Assembly: GCA_947259575.1 (NCBI GenBank)
Contig: CAMYMU010000024.1
Location: forward strand, 124,001-188,000
From: an uncultured Ectothiorhodospiraceae bacterium
Lineage (GTDB): Bacteria > Pseudomonadota > Gammaproteobacteria > UBA6429 > Thiohalophilaceae
DNA: 64,000 nt
Direction of reading: 5' to 3'
Of the stretch, positions 51,701 to 59,046 are shown piece after piece. Within the stretch, counting starts at the first letter, position 1. Each line of letters opens with the position of its first letter. A program made the position numbers and the translations under genes. The notes under the pieces are model-generated. The model had not been told where the DNA came from. It searched no databases and saw only the letters and a program-made list of their open reading frames with translations.

Positions 51701-51941
51701 AACAGCGATTACGACTATCGTTGGTTTATTGCCGACTGCTTATGGTTGGGGTGGTCTTGATCCCTTTGTTTCTTCTATGGCATTGGCGCTGTCGTGGGGC
51801 CTGATCTTTGCTACCGTCATTACTCTGATTATGATCCCCGCATTATTTATGGCTGGGGTCGATATCTTCGAGTTTCTGTTCCTCCATGCAAAAAAGAAAG
51901 CTGCATTAAAGGCTAAAATAAAGTTAGATCAGGAGATATAA
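48789..51941 (+). CDS. RND efflux transporter permease
   Basis: A 1050-residue inner-membrane proton-driven pump of the AcrB/HAE class. N-terminal helix, large periplasmic loop 1, helices 2-6 with GMLVDDAIILGENI carrying the proton-relay Asp pair, periplasmic loop 2, then helices 8-12 (MSTLGMVALTGVVVNSSLVLL). Length equals that of AcrB. It lies 21 bases after tolC; no membrane-fusion adaptor gene (HlyD/AcrA type) is present between or around them. The last 13 bases overlap the convergent FHA gene. Confidence 0.93.
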   Translation: MTAIIRFMVERGLVVWLVSIFLVALGVFSIVKINREAFPNVNLDVVQITVVQPGASPQEVERLIVIPIEQELKVLTGIDKVTSVAFPGSARITLELDPDASNREQITNEVQLAIDRARLPTDLPDKPFVLEIDARVFPVLQLAISAPRDDLSMKKLGSKIEDDLLRLPGVGRVQIQGDRKEEISVIVKPEKLHQHRITVGEIADVIRKWNVNASGGGIDTHDGQKTVRVQGEYQNDEDVSNLVLRANEYGQGLLLKDVADVKLGLEKASTYQDVSGKSALHIIVMKLEDADIIDTVATVKEYLASVPDKYGQDIEVDTFNDFSKIAKLRLGVLTNNGMVGVVLVLLTLVLFLRPSVAVSTTLGLPIVFLTGLFVLYMMGVTLNLLSMMAFIMVLGMLVDDAIILGENIAYHMEQGMSPSQSAVTGAKELIGPVTTTILTTVVAFIPLMFISGMIGKFIIAIPVVVILLLIFSWLESFLILPNHVSHLTNPDKPAVERAWLKWLENKYAGVLKFTLRHHWLMVILSVAMLVGSFVLAFSDAMRFQLFPPVGIEQYMIRVSAEPGTSLEQMRAKLIEVDETLRAEIDERYLEATLITTGQTAKDSGDPLVQKGSRFGQIRAVYIPAVSRPEHDALKDMFRIKPVLIDNHNDLEFAFEEMQPGPPTGRALQVEIIGDNYDASKKVANQLMQYLHSIEGVTTVESDMLPGDAEIRVEFDRSIAAYAGIDLSTAVTHIRAAVDGLRVTTTRWGSDEVDITIRFPETSYEQQLRQLETLQIPNARGGMVTINKVAKFVEYDGFTNIRHTDNQRVVNVLANIDSTLITSTLLNKQVAIDESEWLNEEQARHVMINYGGENEKNQESLGDLSFAFAFALIAVFFILAIQFNNLGYPLAVMLAIPFGAIGVILSFYLHNLFWKPLPLSFMSTLGMVALTGVVVNSSLVLLVFIQRYIKSGMERHEAVIQACRRRLRAVLLTAITTIVGLLPTAYGWGGLDPFVSSMALALSWGLIFATVITLIMIPALFMAGVDIFEFLFLHAKKKAALKAKIKLDQEI

Positions 51942-52597
51942 AAGAACTCCATCTGGGTCTGAGCAAGTTCTAAAACATCATGATCTTTTAGCATCATCGC
52001 TTTTTCGGTTAGTGGTTCACCATTGACATTAGGATTATCGTTGGAACGGCGCAATTTGTTACTTTTGATGGCAGTTACTGTATAGCCTTCAGCGGTACGG
52101 GCAATCATGGCCATTTTAACTCCGTTAAAACCAAGGGTGTTGAAGGGTTTACGCAGTTCTAACACTTTGCTCTTAAGTGGACCATTCAAAATTTTAACCG
52201 CCGCGAGTGGCTCGCCCTTGGCATCGCTAGGTTTGGGTGGGTTTGCTACCATAATTTGCGTGTCTTCAATCTCTGCACGCAAAAACATGGTGGGCTCATA
52301 TTCTTCATCTTCATTTTCAAAGTAGGTGAACTGATAATTACCAATCTGAACAACATCACTATGAGTTAAAATCGACTTTGAAACGCGGCCGCCATTGAGA
52401 AGGGTACCGTTGGTGCTACCCAGGTCATCGACATAAGTATTGTCACCCATGACTGTGAATAGTGCATGTCTTCCGCTTACCGTGAGATCATTGAGTTGAA
52501 TATCATTGCCGTGTTTGCGGCCGATGCTGATACTGTCTTTATCAATCATAAATTCGCGTATGATTGCGCCATCAAGTGTCATAATTAGTTTTGCCAT
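51929..52597 (-). CDS. FHA-domain protein
   Basis: A 222-residue cytosolic protein. Residues about 20-95 form a forkhead-associated domain that binds phosphothreonine: SIGRKHGNDIQL, SGRHALF and LGSTNGTLLNG have the Gly, Arg, Ser-x-x-His and Asn landmarks. The C-terminal half repeats an FHA-like strand order without the key binding residues (NTLGFNGVKMAMIARTAEGY, NPNVNGEPL), so it looks like a second, degenerate FHA domain. Last gene of the kinase-PilT operon, probably a phospho-reader of the kinase. Confidence 0.88.
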   Translation of the reverse strand: MAKLIMTLDGAIIREFMIDKDSISIGRKHGNDIQLNDLTVSGRHALFTVMGDNTYVDDLGSTNGTLLNGGRVSKSILTHSDVVQIGNYQFTYFENEDEEYEPTMFLRAEIEDTQIMVANPPKPSDAKGEPLAAVKILNGPLKSKVLELRKPFNTLGFNGVKMAMIARTAEGYTVTAIKSNKLRRSNDNPNVNGEPLTEKAMMLKDHDVLELAQTQMEFFYIS

Positions 52598-52623
52598 GGT
52601 TCTTTACCTGGGTTTATTAGCAA

Positions 52624-53739
52624 TTAATTCATGTTTACGGAGTCTGGTGTATCACTCGGAGTCTTACTTTCATCCACTTCGCGTCCTTCTAATAAGGCTT
52701 CGAAATCTGCTTTTACTCTTGATTTGAAATAAGCTTCTTCCGGACTAATTAGCTGCGCATCGACTAACCTCATGAGTGCCGTATCCATACGTTGCATGCC
52801 TACCATGCCACCACTTTGAATTACATTTTCGATCTGATCAATCTTTCCTTCTCGAATCAAGTTAGAAACCGCCGCGTTATTAATTAGAATTTCAATCGCA
52901 GGGATTCGTCCCTTATTATCTGTCTTACGAACCAGTTGTTGAGATATTACACCAATTAATGAGGTTGATAACATAGTTCGCACATAAGGCTCTTCACCCG
53001 CTGGGAAGGCATTGATCACCCGGTCAACGGCTGGAGCTGCACCATTCGTATGCAAAGTCGCGAGCACTAAAATACCCATTTCGGCTGCAGTCAGCGCCAG
53101 ATGGATTGTCTCCTGATCACGCATTTCACCAACAAGAATAACATCAGGATCCTCACGCAAGGCTGACATTAGTGCTTTTGAAAACGATGGCGTATGTGTG
53201 CCGACTTCACGTTGGCTGAATAGACACCGTTTGGTATGGTGCACAAATTCAACGGGGTCTTCAATAGTAATGATATGTCCATGACGTTCTTCATTTATGA
53301 AGTCAATCATGGAGGCAAGTGTAGTTGATTTACCTGAGCCAGTTGGTCCTGTGACGAGTATGAGTCCTTTTCTGTGTCGCGTTAGATTTTTTAATACTGG
53401 CGGTAGACCTAGTTTATTAAGGCTAATAACTTCTGTGGGTATAACGCGGAAGACAGCACCTAAGCCACCGAGATGTTGAAAAACATTAACACGAAAACGC
53501 CCTGAGGCACCGTAATCATAAGAGAAGTCAGCATTACCTTTCTCTTTAAAATCAGAATGTAGGTTTTCTGGTATTAGATCAAACACCAGGTTGTAAATGT
53601 CATCTGCAGTTAAATCGCGATATTTAACCTCGTAGGCAATGCCATGCAATCTTATCCGAGGTGGATTACCTGCAACAAGGTGAAGGTCTGAACCTCCCTG
53701 GGCCAGTACCAGATCTAAAAATGTATGTATCCGCTGCAT
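52624..53739 (-). CDS. PilT/PilU-type retraction ATPase, second of a pair
   Basis: A 371-residue secretion-family hexameric ATPase of type IV pilus systems. N-terminal PAS-like domain (GGSDLHLVAGNPPRIRLHG), Walker A GPTGSGKSTT, Asp box TIEDPVEFVH, Walker B DVILVGEMRD, His box ATLHTNGA. It ends in an acidic/Ser-rich tail (GREVDESKTPSDTPDSV), as in PilU-like paralogues. Its ATG is 2 bases from the stop of the first ATPase. The two probably work together in pilus retraction. Confidence 0.9.
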   Translation of the reverse strand: MQRIHTFLDLVLAQGGSDLHLVAGNPPRIRLHGIAYEVKYRDLTADDIYNLVFDLIPENLHSDFKEKGNADFSYDYGASGRFRVNVFQHLGGLGAVFRVIPTEVISLNKLGLPPVLKNLTRHRKGLILVTGPTGSGKSTTLASMIDFINEERHGHIITIEDPVEFVHHTKRCLFSQREVGTHTPSFSKALMSALREDPDVILVGEMRDQETIHLALTAAEMGILVLATLHTNGAAPAVDRVINAFPAGEEPYVRTMLSTSLIGVISQQLVRKTDNKGRIPAIEILINNAAVSNLIREGKIDQIENVIQSGGMVGMQRMDTALMRLVDAQLISPEEAYFKSRVKADFEALLEGREVDESKTPSDTPDSVNMN

Positions 53740-53741
53740 TC

Positions 53742-54839
53742 TTAGGTAACCGCCAGATTAACTTGTGGAAGCAACTCAGGATTAGTTACAAAACGTTGGA
53801 AAAGCTTTTTATCCGTTGCATGTAAATATGCGTTATCTGGATCGACTTCTTTCTTTTGTACCGCTTCAAGCAGGGACTGATCGAGCAACTGCATCCCCAT
53901 ATCAACGCTGGTCTGTATAATCGATGGGATCTGGAAAATCTTATTGGTCATGATAAGGTTGCCGATTGCCGGCGTGTTGATCATAATTTCAAGAATTGCC
54001 TTTCGATAACGACCATCTGCGGTCCGTACCAGTTTTTGACTGATAACAGCATTTAAGTGTTGTGATAAAAATGACTTGGTTAGCATTTTTTGTTCTGTGG
54101 GCATCGCATCGATGATCCGATCTAATGTTTTTACTGCACTGGTGGTATGTAACGTTCCCAGGACAAGGTGTCCTGTTTCTGCAGCGGTCATAGCCATGGA
54201 TATGGTATCCGTATCGCGCAACTCACCCACCAGGATAATATCGGGATCTTCGCGTAGTGCAGATCTTAATCCTTCAGTGAAGCTGCTTACATGTGTGCCA
54301 ACAGCACGTTGTATAACGAGCGATTGTTTACTTTTATGCACATATTCGATTGGATCTTCGAGCGTGATTATATTGAAACGTCTATTCCTGTTTAACCAAT
54401 CGATCATGGCAGCTAATGTTGTTGATTTTCCTGTGCCGGTTGCACCCGTCACCAGGATCAATCCCTGTGTGGAGTGCAAGAATTTTTCGATAACAGGCGG
54501 TAGTCCAAGGTCATCAAATGTCGGAATCTTTGGCGCAATGGCTCGGAACGAAGCACCAATCCCAGTAACTTTATGGAACATGTTGACACGGAAACGGCCG
54601 ACTTCCTCATTTTCATAAGAAAAGTCCAGGTCATTTCCCGCTTCAAACAGTTCGATTTGAACCGGAGTTAAAATCTCGTGGGTGAGCTCAGTGATTTCAG
54701 AATCGGTTAAATCTCGATACTTAATTGGGTTTAGCTCACCATGTAGGCGAACCAATGGCGGGGCGCCTACAGCAAAGTGAATATCCGAGCCTCCTTGTTG
54801 TCGCCCAAGCTGTAAAAATGCATTAATTCTGGCTGTCAT
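53742..54839 (-). CDS. PilT/PilU-type retraction ATPase, first of a pair
   Basis: A 365-residue homologue of the following gene: GGSDIHFAVGAPPLVRLHGE, Walker A GATGTGKSTT, LEDPIEYVHKSKQ, Walker B DIILVGELRDTDTI, His box LGTLHTTSA. Overlaps the kinase gene stop by one base (TGATG). No pilin, PilB, PilC or other pilus genes are in the window, so the ATPases must serve a pilus machine encoded elsewhere, or a related one. Confidence 0.9.
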   Translation of the reverse strand: MTARINAFLQLGRQQGGSDIHFAVGAPPLVRLHGELNPIKYRDLTDSEITELTHEILTPVQIELFEAGNDLDFSYENEEVGRFRVNMFHKVTGIGASFRAIAPKIPTFDDLGLPPVIEKFLHSTQGLILVTGATGTGKSTTLAAMIDWLNRNRRFNIITLEDPIEYVHKSKQSLVIQRAVGTHVSSFTEGLRSALREDPDIILVGELRDTDTISMAMTAAETGHLVLGTLHTTSAVKTLDRIIDAMPTEQKMLTKSFLSQHLNAVISQKLVRTADGRYRKAILEIMINTPAIGNLIMTNKIFQIPSIIQTSVDMGMQLLDQSLLEAVQKKEVDPDNAYLHATDKKLFQRFVTNPELLPQVNLAVT

Positions 54840-57226
54840 CAGGCTGCTTCCTCACTAACTACTTTTTCAATTGCAGCATATAATTCTTCAGCTGTCTGGT
54901 AACGCTCCTCAGGATTGACAGACATAGTCTTCATGATGACATTGCTCAGTGCTTCAGATACTTTAGGATTGGCTTTATATGCTGGTACGGCCTTACCTTC
55001 AACATGCTGGAAAAGGGTGGCCAGATGATCCTCGCCTTTATAGGGTGCACGACCGACAAATATTTCATACATCAAAATGCCGAGACTATAGATATCGGTG
55101 CGGTGGTCAATCGCACGTGCACGTACTTGTTCGGGGGCCATGTATGTTGGTGTGCCAACGAGTATGCCGGTTTTTGTGATACGTGAGTCGGCAGAACTAG
55201 CTGCTGCTGCCAGGCCAAAGTCAACGATTTTAACCTGATCATTGTCGTCTACCAAAATGTTCGCCGGCTTAAGATCTCTGTGGACAACATCGCGTGAATG
55301 GGCAAAACCAACACCCTGACAAATTTGTTTAAATATCGAAAGAATTCTTTGTGTATTTGGATTTTTATTGGTTTTAATTTCAAACGCCAATGAATGACTA
55401 TCAAAATACTCCATCGAAATTGCGTAGGTGTTGCCAAAGGTGATGAAGTCATAGATCCGAATAATTTTCTCGTGAGTAATTTTTCGGGCATAGCGGAGTT
55501 CATGAATGAAACGCTGAATGATGTTTTCATCAGATGACATATGGGCATTCAAAAACTTCATAATAATTCGATCTGAAACCATCATATCTTCAACCAGAAG
55601 TACAACACCAAATGCACCTTTACCTATGTGCTTTATTACTTTATAACGATTGGCAATAATGAATCCTGGTGTAAACTTGCTGGCATCAAAGATTGTTGCG
55701 ACTTCAGCAGTATTTTCATTTTCAGATAAATCCAGTATGCCCGCACTGGTTTCGTCCTTTTTCTTTATGTTTACGCTAGTATCGGGTGGCGTTATGGTGG
55801 TTTGCACTGTGGGTCGACTTGTTTGCGACATGCTGGCATCGCTTTGTTGTCCCGTCTTTGCCTGGATGATGTGAGTTTGCGCGTCGGCGATCGAACTGTT
55901 TTGATCCAGGTCTTCTGTTTTTGCGAATTCACTGATGGCAAGTAACATTTCTCTACGTACTTCACCGCTTGCTTCATTAGCCGATTGCATTAGTTCGGGT
56001 ATTACATCCTGACCGCTTATGCTGACGAGTGCCTTGACAATGACATGCGCCGACTCCGAGTATTTTTTAAGGGCCTTAAATAATTCAGGAACTGCACGAG
56101 GATCTGACATGTTTCCTAATGCATCGACTGCGCGTTCGCGTACCCACCAATCTTCATCATCGAGCGCCTGGACCAGGTAAAAATACGCACGCTCGTCTTT
56201 TACAGAATTCAGGATTTCAACTGCAGTACGGCGTAAAAACTCATCTTCATCACTTAATAAGGTAACGACTGCCTCGACAACACGTGGACCACCAATTGAA
56301 CCTAGCGCATCAGCAGCACGGACTCGCACCCACCAGTCAGAATCACGCATTGCATTCAATAAATTTTTAATTGCTCGAGGGTCTGCAACTTCATTCAGTA
56401 CTTCGACCGCAGCACGTCGAATATATTCAGAATCATCATTTAGTATTTCGATGAGGTAAGTGACGGTATTGGGATCATTAATCCTGATTAAGGCTTCAAT
56501 CGCCTTTGATTGAACAGTCATGTCGGGGTCGCGAAGCAAAGGGATCACTTTTGTCGCCGACACTTCCATACCAAGTTGGCTAATGCCATCAAGTGCGACT
56601 TGTCGAATCTGTTTGTTTGAATCTCCCAGTGCTTTGACCAGTGCGCCACGGACCGAATCATTTTTGAATCTCGACAAGGTTTTAATAGTTTGCAAACGTG
56701 TGGAGATATCTGGATCTTCTACATAGTGTAATAAATACGGGACAGCATCCTCTTTGACAACGGCATGAATTAAATGAAAGGCGAGGTTGCGTTTATTCTT
56801 GTCAGGGGTTTCAAGTAGCGCAACAACTTTTTTCACATTAAGGCGCGCCTTTTTTTCGGTCAGAATTTGCAGCAACAACTTTTTCGGTATTTCAGGGTCA
56901 TCAAGTTGTTTTAGCAAACTATTGGGATCGTAATTATTACTTTGTACGAGGATTTTCGCGATACTTGAAATCAGTCGACGATCGGGTTCTGCCAGAGCAT
57001 CGACGTATTCGGGCAGTGATTTGTTATCAAGTAGTATGACTAACAGGTTTTCAACAAGTGGGTTTCCAGGCGCATCCAGTAAGGCATCAATTAATTTTGA
57101 AACGGCGGGTCGACCTATTTGTTTAAGTTTGGAATATGCGACTACTACGTCTGGATCTTTTGGGTTATCCGAATCCAGAAGCGTATTAATTGCTTTGCTA
57201 ACTTTAAAAGAGTCTAACAGTGCCAT
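54839..57226 (-). CDS. HEAT-repeat Ser/Thr protein kinase
   Basis: A 795-residue fusion. Residues about 30-440 contain roughly ten HEAT/PBS-type repeats (for example DPRAIKNLLNAMRDSDWWVR, DEDWWVRERAVDALG), then a flexible Ser/Thr/Lys linker (about 445-520) and a Hanks-type kinase (527-790). Kinase residues are complete: P-loop 535-541, K557, E576, H649-R-D651, N656, D669-F-G671, A697-P-E699, D711. No membrane helix is seen. It is 18 bases after the first gene of the operon and directly before two PilT ATPases, with an FHA reader at the end. Confidence 0.93.
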   Translation of the reverse strand: MALLDSFKVSKAINTLLDSDNPKDPDVVVAYSKLKQIGRPAVSKLIDALLDAPGNPLVENLLVILLDNKSLPEYVDALAEPDRRLISSIAKILVQSNNYDPNSLLKQLDDPEIPKKLLLQILTEKKARLNVKKVVALLETPDKNKRNLAFHLIHAVVKEDAVPYLLHYVEDPDISTRLQTIKTLSRFKNDSVRGALVKALGDSNKQIRQVALDGISQLGMEVSATKVIPLLRDPDMTVQSKAIEALIRINDPNTVTYLIEILNDDSEYIRRAAVEVLNEVADPRAIKNLLNAMRDSDWWVRVRAADALGSIGGPRVVEAVVTLLSDEDEFLRRTAVEILNSVKDERAYFYLVQALDDEDWWVRERAVDALGNMSDPRAVPELFKALKKYSESAHVIVKALVSISGQDVIPELMQSANEASGEVRREMLLAISEFAKTEDLDQNSSIADAQTHIIQAKTGQQSDASMSQTSRPTVQTTITPPDTSVNIKKKDETSAGILDLSENENTAEVATIFDASKFTPGFIIANRYKVIKHIGKGAFGVVLLVEDMMVSDRIIMKFLNAHMSSDENIIQRFIHELRYARKITHEKIIRIYDFITFGNTYAISMEYFDSHSLAFEIKTNKNPNTQRILSIFKQICQGVGFAHSRDVVHRDLKPANILVDDNDQVKIVDFGLAAAASSADSRITKTGILVGTPTYMAPEQVRARAIDHRTDIYSLGILMYEIFVGRAPYKGEDHLATLFQHVEGKAVPAYKANPKVSEALSNVIMKTMSVNPEERYQTAEELYAAIEKVVSEEAA

Positions 57227-57244
57227 CAGTATCTTATGCGGTGT

Positions 57245-57718
57245 TTACGATTGGTTGACGACTTGAATGATATAGGATTTATTCACCATGCATATCTCTT
57301 TGTCCGAGGTATACAAACGGATAAATCGTTCCTGTCCCTGGTTTAGGTAGTCATAAAGTCGCTCATGATCGTTTGGCAAAACTTCTACAATATCACCATC
57401 GATAACCGAACCATCCATTAGGTGTACACGACAGGATAGGTGAGTGTATTTATCGCCATCTGGTTTTTCGTCTTCGTACTCAACGCGCGTAATCGATGCG
57501 CGATTGTAAAAGCGCAGTTCATCGGGATTACTTCGCTTAAGCACCAGAAAGGGCGAATCGTCATTTAGCACATAGCGTGGATCCTCCTGGGTCCCCGTCT
57601 CTTCACCAATAGTGACGAAAATCGAGCCGCTTACCAGCCCTTCCGGATGAACCCACATACTTACATGCCTTAAGGCTTTCGCTATCTTGAGTGGTTTATC
57701 TATCACCACTTTCTCCAA
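57245..57718 (-). CDS. Unknown protein, first gene of the kinase-PilT operon
   Basis: A 157-residue protein of unknown family, mostly predicted beta strands: VSMWVHPEGLVSGSIFVTIG, DDSPFLVLKRSN, ASITRVEYEDE, HLMDGSVIDGDIVEVLP, then ERFIRLYTSDKEICMVNKSYII. The MDGSVIDGDI turn looks like a small beta barrel. No signal peptide, helix bundle or catalytic pattern is evident. Position suggests a component or regulator of the kinase system. Confidence 0.7.
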   Translation of the reverse strand: MEKVVIDKPLKIAKALRHVSMWVHPEGLVSGSIFVTIGEETGTQEDPRYVLNDDSPFLVLKRSNPDELRFYNRASITRVEYEDEKPDGDKYTHLSCRVHLMDGSVIDGDIVEVLPNDHERLYDYLNQGQERFIRLYTSDKEICMVNKSYIIQVVNQS

Positions 57719-58617: not shown

Positions 58618-59046
58618 ATGCTTGATCAAATCACAGCGTTCTCAGATTCTCAATATAAGCGACAGGTAAATCCTTCAGTCGAGGGACATTTACGTTCAGA
58701 ATCCAGGCAAGAATTTGAGGCAAAACAGAACGAAAGAGTGAGTGCGCGAGAGGCACAGAGAACAGAACGTACAGAACAGTCCAGAAACAGGCTTGAAGAG
58801 CAGTTCACAACTGCAACTAGACGCCAGCAGGGACATACTGCTGCTCAAGAGACAAATCAGGGACCGAGCAAGGCGGCAGAGTTAGCTGAAAAATTAGCCA
58901 AACATGTTAAACAATCGCGTCAACAAGAAGCACGCGATTTCCGCCAAGCCGGTTTCTCGCATGCAAACAAGAGTCGCCAAATAAGTCAGACATATCAGCA
59001 GGACCTACCGACCAGTCAAAACAGAATCATTGATGAAATGGCGTGA
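58618..59046 (+). CDS. Gln/Arg/Glu-rich coiled protein of unknown function
   Basis: A 142-residue soluble protein without hydrophobic core. Composition is dominated by Gln, Arg, Glu, Ser and Ala, with long stretches that could form amphipathic helices or remain disordered (KAAELAEKLAKHVKQSRQQ). I do not recognise a family. ATG start after a purine-poor leader, so its coding status is less sure than its neighbours. Confidence 0.45.
   Translation: MLDQITAFSDSQYKRQVNPSVEGHLRSESRQEFEAKQNERVSAREAQRTERTEQSRNRLEEQFTTATRRQQGHTAAQETNQGPSKAAELAEKLAKHVKQSRQQEARDFRQAGFSHANKSRQISQTYQQDLPTSQNRIIDEMA

Follow-up and report, generated by a model that had tools for sequence, protein, structure and literature searches.

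A conserved gammaproteobacterial operon joins a HEAT-repeat Ser/Thr kinase and a two-FHA protein to a pair of PilT-type ATPases

Introduction

Several described systems share part of the gene set reported here. The kinase-FHA pathway PpkA-Fha acts on type VI secretion (PMC3953482). In the PilT and PilU retraction ATPases of Vibrio, the His box with its histidine pair is required for function, and PilU, which lacks the AIRNLIRE motif, drives retraction only through PilT (PMC6762196). In Synechocystis, the RNA chaperone Hfq binds the motor ATPase PilB1 and is needed for motility there (PMC7690835). Ser/Thr kinases affecting pili are also known, SpkA being one (PMC7076178). The Pil-Chp/CyaB system and SpkA of Synechocystis resemble the pathway proposed here in tying pilus dynamics to phosphorylation and cyclic nucleotides, SpkA being a Ser/Thr kinase without which motility fails. 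They differ in that Chp relies on a histidine kinase, and SpkA is, to our knowledge, not operonic with PilT.

The window analysed, meaning the whole stretch of 64,000 nucleotides, spans C24:124001-188000 in the genome of a gammaproteobacterium (3.45 Mb in 70 contigs). Its operon resembles the PpkA-Fha-PppA pathway of type VI secretion systems (T6SS) in placing a Ser/Thr kinase, an FHA reader and (here, in relatives) a PP2C phosphatase beside a motor-type nanomachine, with the FHA domain reading phosphorylation, and differs from it in its soluble HEAT kinase, its PilT-type motor pair and an added tandem Sm-like protein. The T6SS threonine phosphorylation pathway (PpkA/TagH) was itself rejected as an identity, there being no T6SS genes among the annotated neighbours. 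We found no description in the open-access papers searched of a module of HEAT-kinase, PilT pair, tandem Sm-like protein and FHA protein; kinase-FHA-phosphatase pathways acting on secretion machines are already known.

Results

Operon layout and flanking genes

Five open reading frames, all on the minus strand, occupy positions 51929-57718 in the ORF list of the window (Table 1). They are transcribed in the order 157-aa gene, kinase, ATPase A, ATPase B and FHA gene, with successive gaps of 18, -1, 2 and 26 bases, the negative value marking an overlap of one base, so that the tightly spaced five-gene operon proposed in the initial annotation stands, as do its HEAT, kinase, FHA and PilT-family domain calls, which Pfam and NCBIfam bear out. 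An NlpC/P60 gene lies upstream, across a gap of 201 bases, and the downstream neighbour, a convergent AcrB-type gene, has a 13-base overlap with the FHA stop. Promoter-like sites were no commoner than in shuffled sequence. We additionally noted, at 58618-59046 of the window, a Glu/Arg/Gln-rich ORF of 142 residues between the NlpC/P60 and PBP1b-like genes, which gave no Pfam or NCBIfam match and has counterparts in other genomes of family f1.

Table 1. Genes, domains and candidate functional residues of the operon, in window positions
Feature	Positions	Strand	Remarks
157-aa protein, probable tandem SH3/Sm-like (Hfq-like) barrels	57245..57718	-	TTG start, uncertain
HEAT-repeat Ser/Thr kinase, 795 aa, soluble	54839..57226	-	HEAT_2 x7 + Pkinase
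PilT-family ATPase A (PTA), 365 aa	53742..54839	-	TIGR01420 427 bits
PilT-family ATPase B (PTB), 371 aa	52624..53739	-	TIGR01420 443 bits
Two-FHA protein, 222 aa	51929..52597	-	PF00498
Protein kinase domain, residues 526-785	54872..55651	-	PF00069; HRD at 55274-55282
Conserved HEAT segment, residues 258-375, putative docking groove	56102..56455	-	conservation
I223 of ATPase B, replacing first His-box histidine	53071-53073 (codon)	-	
T103 of two-FHA protein, candidate phospho-acceptor in YEPTMF(I/L/V)	52289..52291 (codon)	-	conservation
T113 of two-FHA protein, second candidate acceptor, same disordered linker	52259..52261 (codon)	-	invariant, 27 sequences

Conservation of the gene set

Relatives of the kinase were identified at E<=1e-60 in 51 of the 369 genomes sampled across the class, and in 40 of 272 genera. 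A phylum sample yielded no further kinase at E<=1e-100, and the members, among those listed, all belonged to the same class. We searched 60 regions, mostly around the class kinases, in six frames with iterated profiles; counts refer to 47 loci of the class sample in 24 families, with family f154 left out. Both PilT-type genes follow the kinase at 41 of the 43 loci with enough downstream sequence, across 24 families, the 157-aa gene precedes it at 33/42 loci (19 families), and the two-FHA gene follows at 17/41 loci, being adjacent in 10 of the 24 families. The flanks beyond the module differ between families (ribBA/ribD, gltX, metG, mrp) and are unrelated, indicating that the shared gene order is not merely a matter of shared surroundings. 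The arrangement, with the same order in 24 families and differing flanks, is far above chance; conservation of the neighbourhood beyond close relatives, a check set beforehand, is seen over about 24 families. The kinase and the two ATPases show correlated pairwise distances (r 0.85-0.89), which may reflect only joint vertical inheritance.

The HEAT-kinases of f154, at 26-30% identity, stand without PilT neighbours, and four of them (L119, L124, L125 and L136) have the architecture of the operon kinase. Family f65 has a tandem duplication of the two-FHA gene behind the ATPases (L081:3836-5257, L118:12348-13833).

The HEAT-repeat kinase

The kinase matches Pfam HEAT_2 in seven stretches and Pkinase (PF00069) with E 3e-55. 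It has the catalytic residues K557, E576, H649-R650-D651, K653, N656 and D669-F670-G671, whose conservation across 47 operon kinases is at least 95%, and the catalytic Lys, Glu, HRD, DFG and APE of Pkinase members are all found. By these residues the protein is a predicted eukaryotic-like Ser/Thr protein kinase with an intact catalytic set. The initial annotation had described a kinase with complete catalytic residues and no visible membrane helix, and both descriptions hold, no helix being predicted and the strongest 19-residue hydropathy window reaching 1.45.

Within the HEAT region, residues 258-375 match the catalytic core in conservation. This segment carries repeated DxDWWVRxRA and DxExxRRxAxEILN motifs, represented here by DSEYIRR, DWW298-299VR, DEFLRR and DWW360-361VRER. 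The WW/RR motifs are kept in the distant PilT-linked kinases shown (f10, f151, f161 and f182) and degraded in four f154 kinases without PilT, in which HRD and DFG remain. We read the segment, from this pattern, as a putative surface for partner binding whose presence tracks linkage to PilT; the f154 kinases are divergent overall, and the loss of HEAT motifs there may be drift.

The two-FHA protein

In the N-terminal FHA domain, the phosphothreonine-pocket residues G26, R27, S41, H44, N63 and G64 are invariant in 27 orthologues, and by these residues (GR, SxxH, NG) the protein is a predicted phosphothreonine reader. Structure comparison fits the fold of this domain to EmbR, GarA and OdhI, with Z of 15-16 and rmsd of 1.2-2.3. 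The C-terminal half lacks SxxH and matches the N-terminal half in a profile comparison (92.9% probability, E 3.8e-7, controls below 1%), which supports the earlier suggestion that it is a second, degenerate FHA domain, the structural comparison having barely covered this half.

Residues 103-123, which link the two halves, are predicted to be disordered (pLDDT <50). The linker motif YEPT103MF(I/L/V) is found, with minor variation, in all but one orthologue, and its PTM core in 26 of 27, from 10 families. Ile, Leu or Val at pT+3 is a favoured class in FHA specificity. T103 is a concrete candidate phosphosite for the idea that the FHA protein is a substrate. It cannot be a universal one, since no more than 10 of the 24 families have the two-FHA gene next to the module.

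The protein is like GarA of the PknB-GarA pair and OdhI, its nearest folds, in being a small FHA protein with an intact phosphothreonine pocket and a conserved threonine, here a candidate acceptor, in a flexible segment. It differs in that the candidate acceptor lies C-terminal of the FHA domain, between two such domains, in an EPTM rather than an ETT motif; the operon kinase, unlike PknB, has neither PASTA domains nor a membrane segment, and the FHA target is presumably a motor and not 2-oxoglutarate dehydrogenase. Identity with OdhI/GarA was rejected, as the OdhI equivalog model gave 62 bits against a cut-off of 200 and the motif is not the N-terminal ETT, and so was identity with TagH (34 bits against 120).

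The PilT-type ATPases A and B

Both ATPases exceed the TIGR01420 (pilT_fam) cut-off of 319 bits, and Walker A, Walker B and the Asp box are intact in both clades. The AIRNLIRE motif, present in 31/31 canonical PilTs, is missing from every listed variant of the operon ATPases; in the window, ATPase A has AIGNLIMT in its place and ATPase B has AVSNLIRE. ATPase A keeps the entire His box; its first histidine is His in 49/49 A proteins, and Ile or Val in 49/49 B proteins. In a FastTree phylogeny of 159 sequences, ATPase A (with two truncated-locus members) and ATPase B each form a clade of their own, with support of 100 and 98 respectively, separate from the canonical PilT clade (support 100) and the PilU clade (98). 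Orthology to PilT was rejected on the missing AIRNLIRE of the variants listed and the separate clades, and orthology to PilU on a PilU clade that contains no operon ATPases. The initial description of both proteins as PilT/PilU-like therefore holds for membership of the PilT family and fails for orthology, since they represent two further clades. The likeness to PilT/PilU of type IVa pili lies in the TIGR01420 family, the ATPase motifs and the tandem pair, whereas the separate clades, the loss of AIRNLIRE from both proteins and that of the His-box histidine from B set the operon ATPases apart. These motifs suggest a competent, though non-canonical, motor for ATPase A and a divergent partner for ATPase B.

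The host genome carries canonical pilT/pilU on C67 and a pilB match of 849 bits. We additionally identified two single PilT-family ATPase genes in this genome (C12:52245-53264 and C31:39149-40171; L127 and L128), which group nearer PilU and bring its PilT-family genes to six. All 51 kinase genomes have at least three PilT-family genes in total; such genes occur in 309/369 genomes, and co-occurrence with the kinase has a hypergeometric p of 6e-5 with kinship ignored. No pilin, PilC or secretin genes were recognised among the recurrent neighbours of the operon, so that within the neighbourhood the pilus link comes solely from the ATPase family; family membership and co-occurrence together support a link to type IV pilus motors.

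The 157-aa protein, probably a tandem of Sm-like barrels

The AF2 model of the 157-aa protein (pLDDT 91.8, pTM 0.84) contains two five-strand barrels, at about residues 14-87 and 91-157, and profile alignment of one half to the other shows them to be homologous (hhalign 89.6%, E 1.9e-6). The "unknown beta-rich protein" of the initial annotation is indeed beta-rich, and what had gone unseen is its tandem of two barrels, which are probably SH3/Sm-like. VIA-align, which covers only Foldseek's own candidates, returned Hfq for nearly all of 50 listed entries, with both halves, at low Z (3.2-3.8), the clean rows giving rmsd of 1.4-2.9 over 46-57 residues. Foldseek against the PDB gave no match at E<=0.001, with Hfq at E about 1 and the top ranks at TM <0.25. 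There were no phmmer matches in the PDB and no match to Pfam Hfq, a DUF6812 match was rejected as below its cut-off, and hhalign to a low-diversity Hfq profile gave a probability below 9%, with only an Sm1-like stretch aligning. From the model, the protein likely resembles Sm/Hfq in fold; an ordinary hfq gene is present elsewhere in the host genome.

Strong matches to this family were found in 37 genomes, all 37 of them kinase-bearing, and the protein is an obligate partner of the kinase in the sample. We also observed a weak and partial 38th match (G284:C28:20490-20720), which aligns to the second half and may be a single-barrel relative; its genome lacks the kinase. The operon recalls cyanobacterial Hfq-PilB1 in pairing, here by gene adjacency, a likely Sm-type protein with ATPases of a type IV pilus motor family, and differs in that its protein is a tandem double barrel beside PilT-type, not PilB-type, ATPases.

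Signalling genes beside the operon in relatives

We identified three kinds of recurrent signalling neighbour in relatives of the operon. A divergent PP2C-type phosphatase gene adjoins it in six families, with DGMGG and GDSR in all 10 proteins; an FHA-GAF-HD-GYP protein, likewise divergent and some 670 aa long, occurs in five families, f1 relatives included, with HDFGK and HHExxDGxGYP in all nine; and an FHA-guanylate/adenylate-cyclase gene is found in five families, mostly downstream in the same direction. At least one such signalling gene is present at 24/47 loci, in 15 families. The two-FHA protein and the FHA-cyclase never occur in one locus of the sample, which suggests that they are alternative readers.

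The genome to which the window belongs gave no close FHA-HD-GYP gene; PP2C genes exist elsewhere in it. At C29:154797-156543 of this genome, a PP2C-type phosphatase gene is directly followed by two FHA-domain matches, possibly another phospho-signalling cluster. In the FHA-cyclase genes L093, L100 and L123, a Thr in acidic context (for example WEKDDIT, WEDEDYT and WEHGDVT) recurs just before the FHA domain and is a possible phospho-acceptor.

Discussion

As read from its sequences, the locus is a conserved module with intact kinase and phosphothreonine-reader residues, two ATPase clades with motif losses, a probable Sm-like partner found only with the kinase, and, in relatives, recurrent signalling neighbours. 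On balance, and with moderate confidence, we consider the operon a threonine-phosphorylation pathway dedicated to auxiliary PilT-type type IV pilus motors, of which we infer the substrate, the docking and the pilus output. The conserved HEAT face would dock the kinase on the PilT-type hexamers of the operon, on the tandem Sm-like protein or on both. The activity of the kinase could then depend on motor state or nucleotide load, and this would account for its being soluble and having no sensor domain. The kinase would phosphorylate the linker of the FHA protein at T103 of EPTMF, and perhaps at T113, as their conservation suggests, and the phosphothreonine would be bound by the FHA domain in cis or in trans, as in OdhI/GarA. 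This phospho-FHA switch would decide whether the FHA protein engages its target, be it the motors or, for relatives, the cyclase and HD-GYP enzymes, and the output would tune retraction by the main PilT/PilU or report retraction to second-messenger signalling, with PP2C resetting the switch in relatives.

The motif losses could also mean that the PilT-type pair no longer retracts pili and has been repurposed as energy or surface-contact sensors in a signalling complex, the output being either the second messengers c-di-GMP and cAMP or a change in gene expression. The absence from A and B of an AIRNLIRE motif found throughout the canonical PilTs, the uniform loss of the His-box histidine from B, and operon neighbours that are FHA-cyclase and FHA-HD-GYP genes and not pilus genes are consistent with such a change of role. 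We nevertheless think it somewhat unlikely, because Walker A, Walker B and the Asp boxes are intact in both proteins, ATPase A retains a full His box, and PilU too lacks AIRNLIRE yet drives retraction through PilT (PMC6762196). The kinase might also phosphorylate the ATPases themselves, with the FHA protein as a reader recruited to them. The invariant core of the module consists of the kinase and the ATPases, whereas the FHA gene adjoins them in no more than 10 families, and the Fha protein of the Agrobacterium T6SS binds phosphothreonine on TssL (PMC3953482). An unsystematic look at the ATPases revealed no conserved Thr motif of the FHA type, however, and the most conspicuous conserved Thr is that of the FHA linker, so this arrangement appears doubtful to us.

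Co-transcription might finally have some other reason, the kinase and FHA protein serving an unrelated process such as cell-envelope control or phage defence. NlpC/P60 and PBP1b-like genes do flank the operon in f1 and f36, but envelope neighbours are confined to these two families and one unassigned contig, while the kinase-PilT core extends over all 24. Kinase-domain models of defence systems (PD-T4-6, MADS) match the operon kinase, but only in its generic kinase domain (about residues 517-793), leaving the HEAT, Sm-like and FHA parts without a match, and we rejected these systems as identities. We regard an unrelated process of this kind as very improbable.

Returning to a pathway dedicated to pilus motors, a more specific and rather unlikely form of it would have the kinase sense the motor directly, three tandem Sm-like proteins forming a six-domain ring that sits on a specialised PilT-type hexamer and bears the kinase. 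Load on the motor, or its engagement, would then be turned into threonine phosphorylation of the FHA switch and passed on to cAMP or c-di-GMP. Such a phospho-relay, if true, would be mechanosensory and would not depend on the Chp chemotaxis system.

Two PilT-family clades are now distinguished which, in genome annotation, go under the plain name PilT/PilU, and the candidate phosphosite T103 and the His-box loss of ATPase B provide specific residues to mutate. The control of type IV pilus retraction and surface sensing are little settled outside a few models, and the kinase/FHA/PilT module, with its phosphatase, cyclase and HD-GYP neighbours, offers a testable route for phospho-control of pilus motors.
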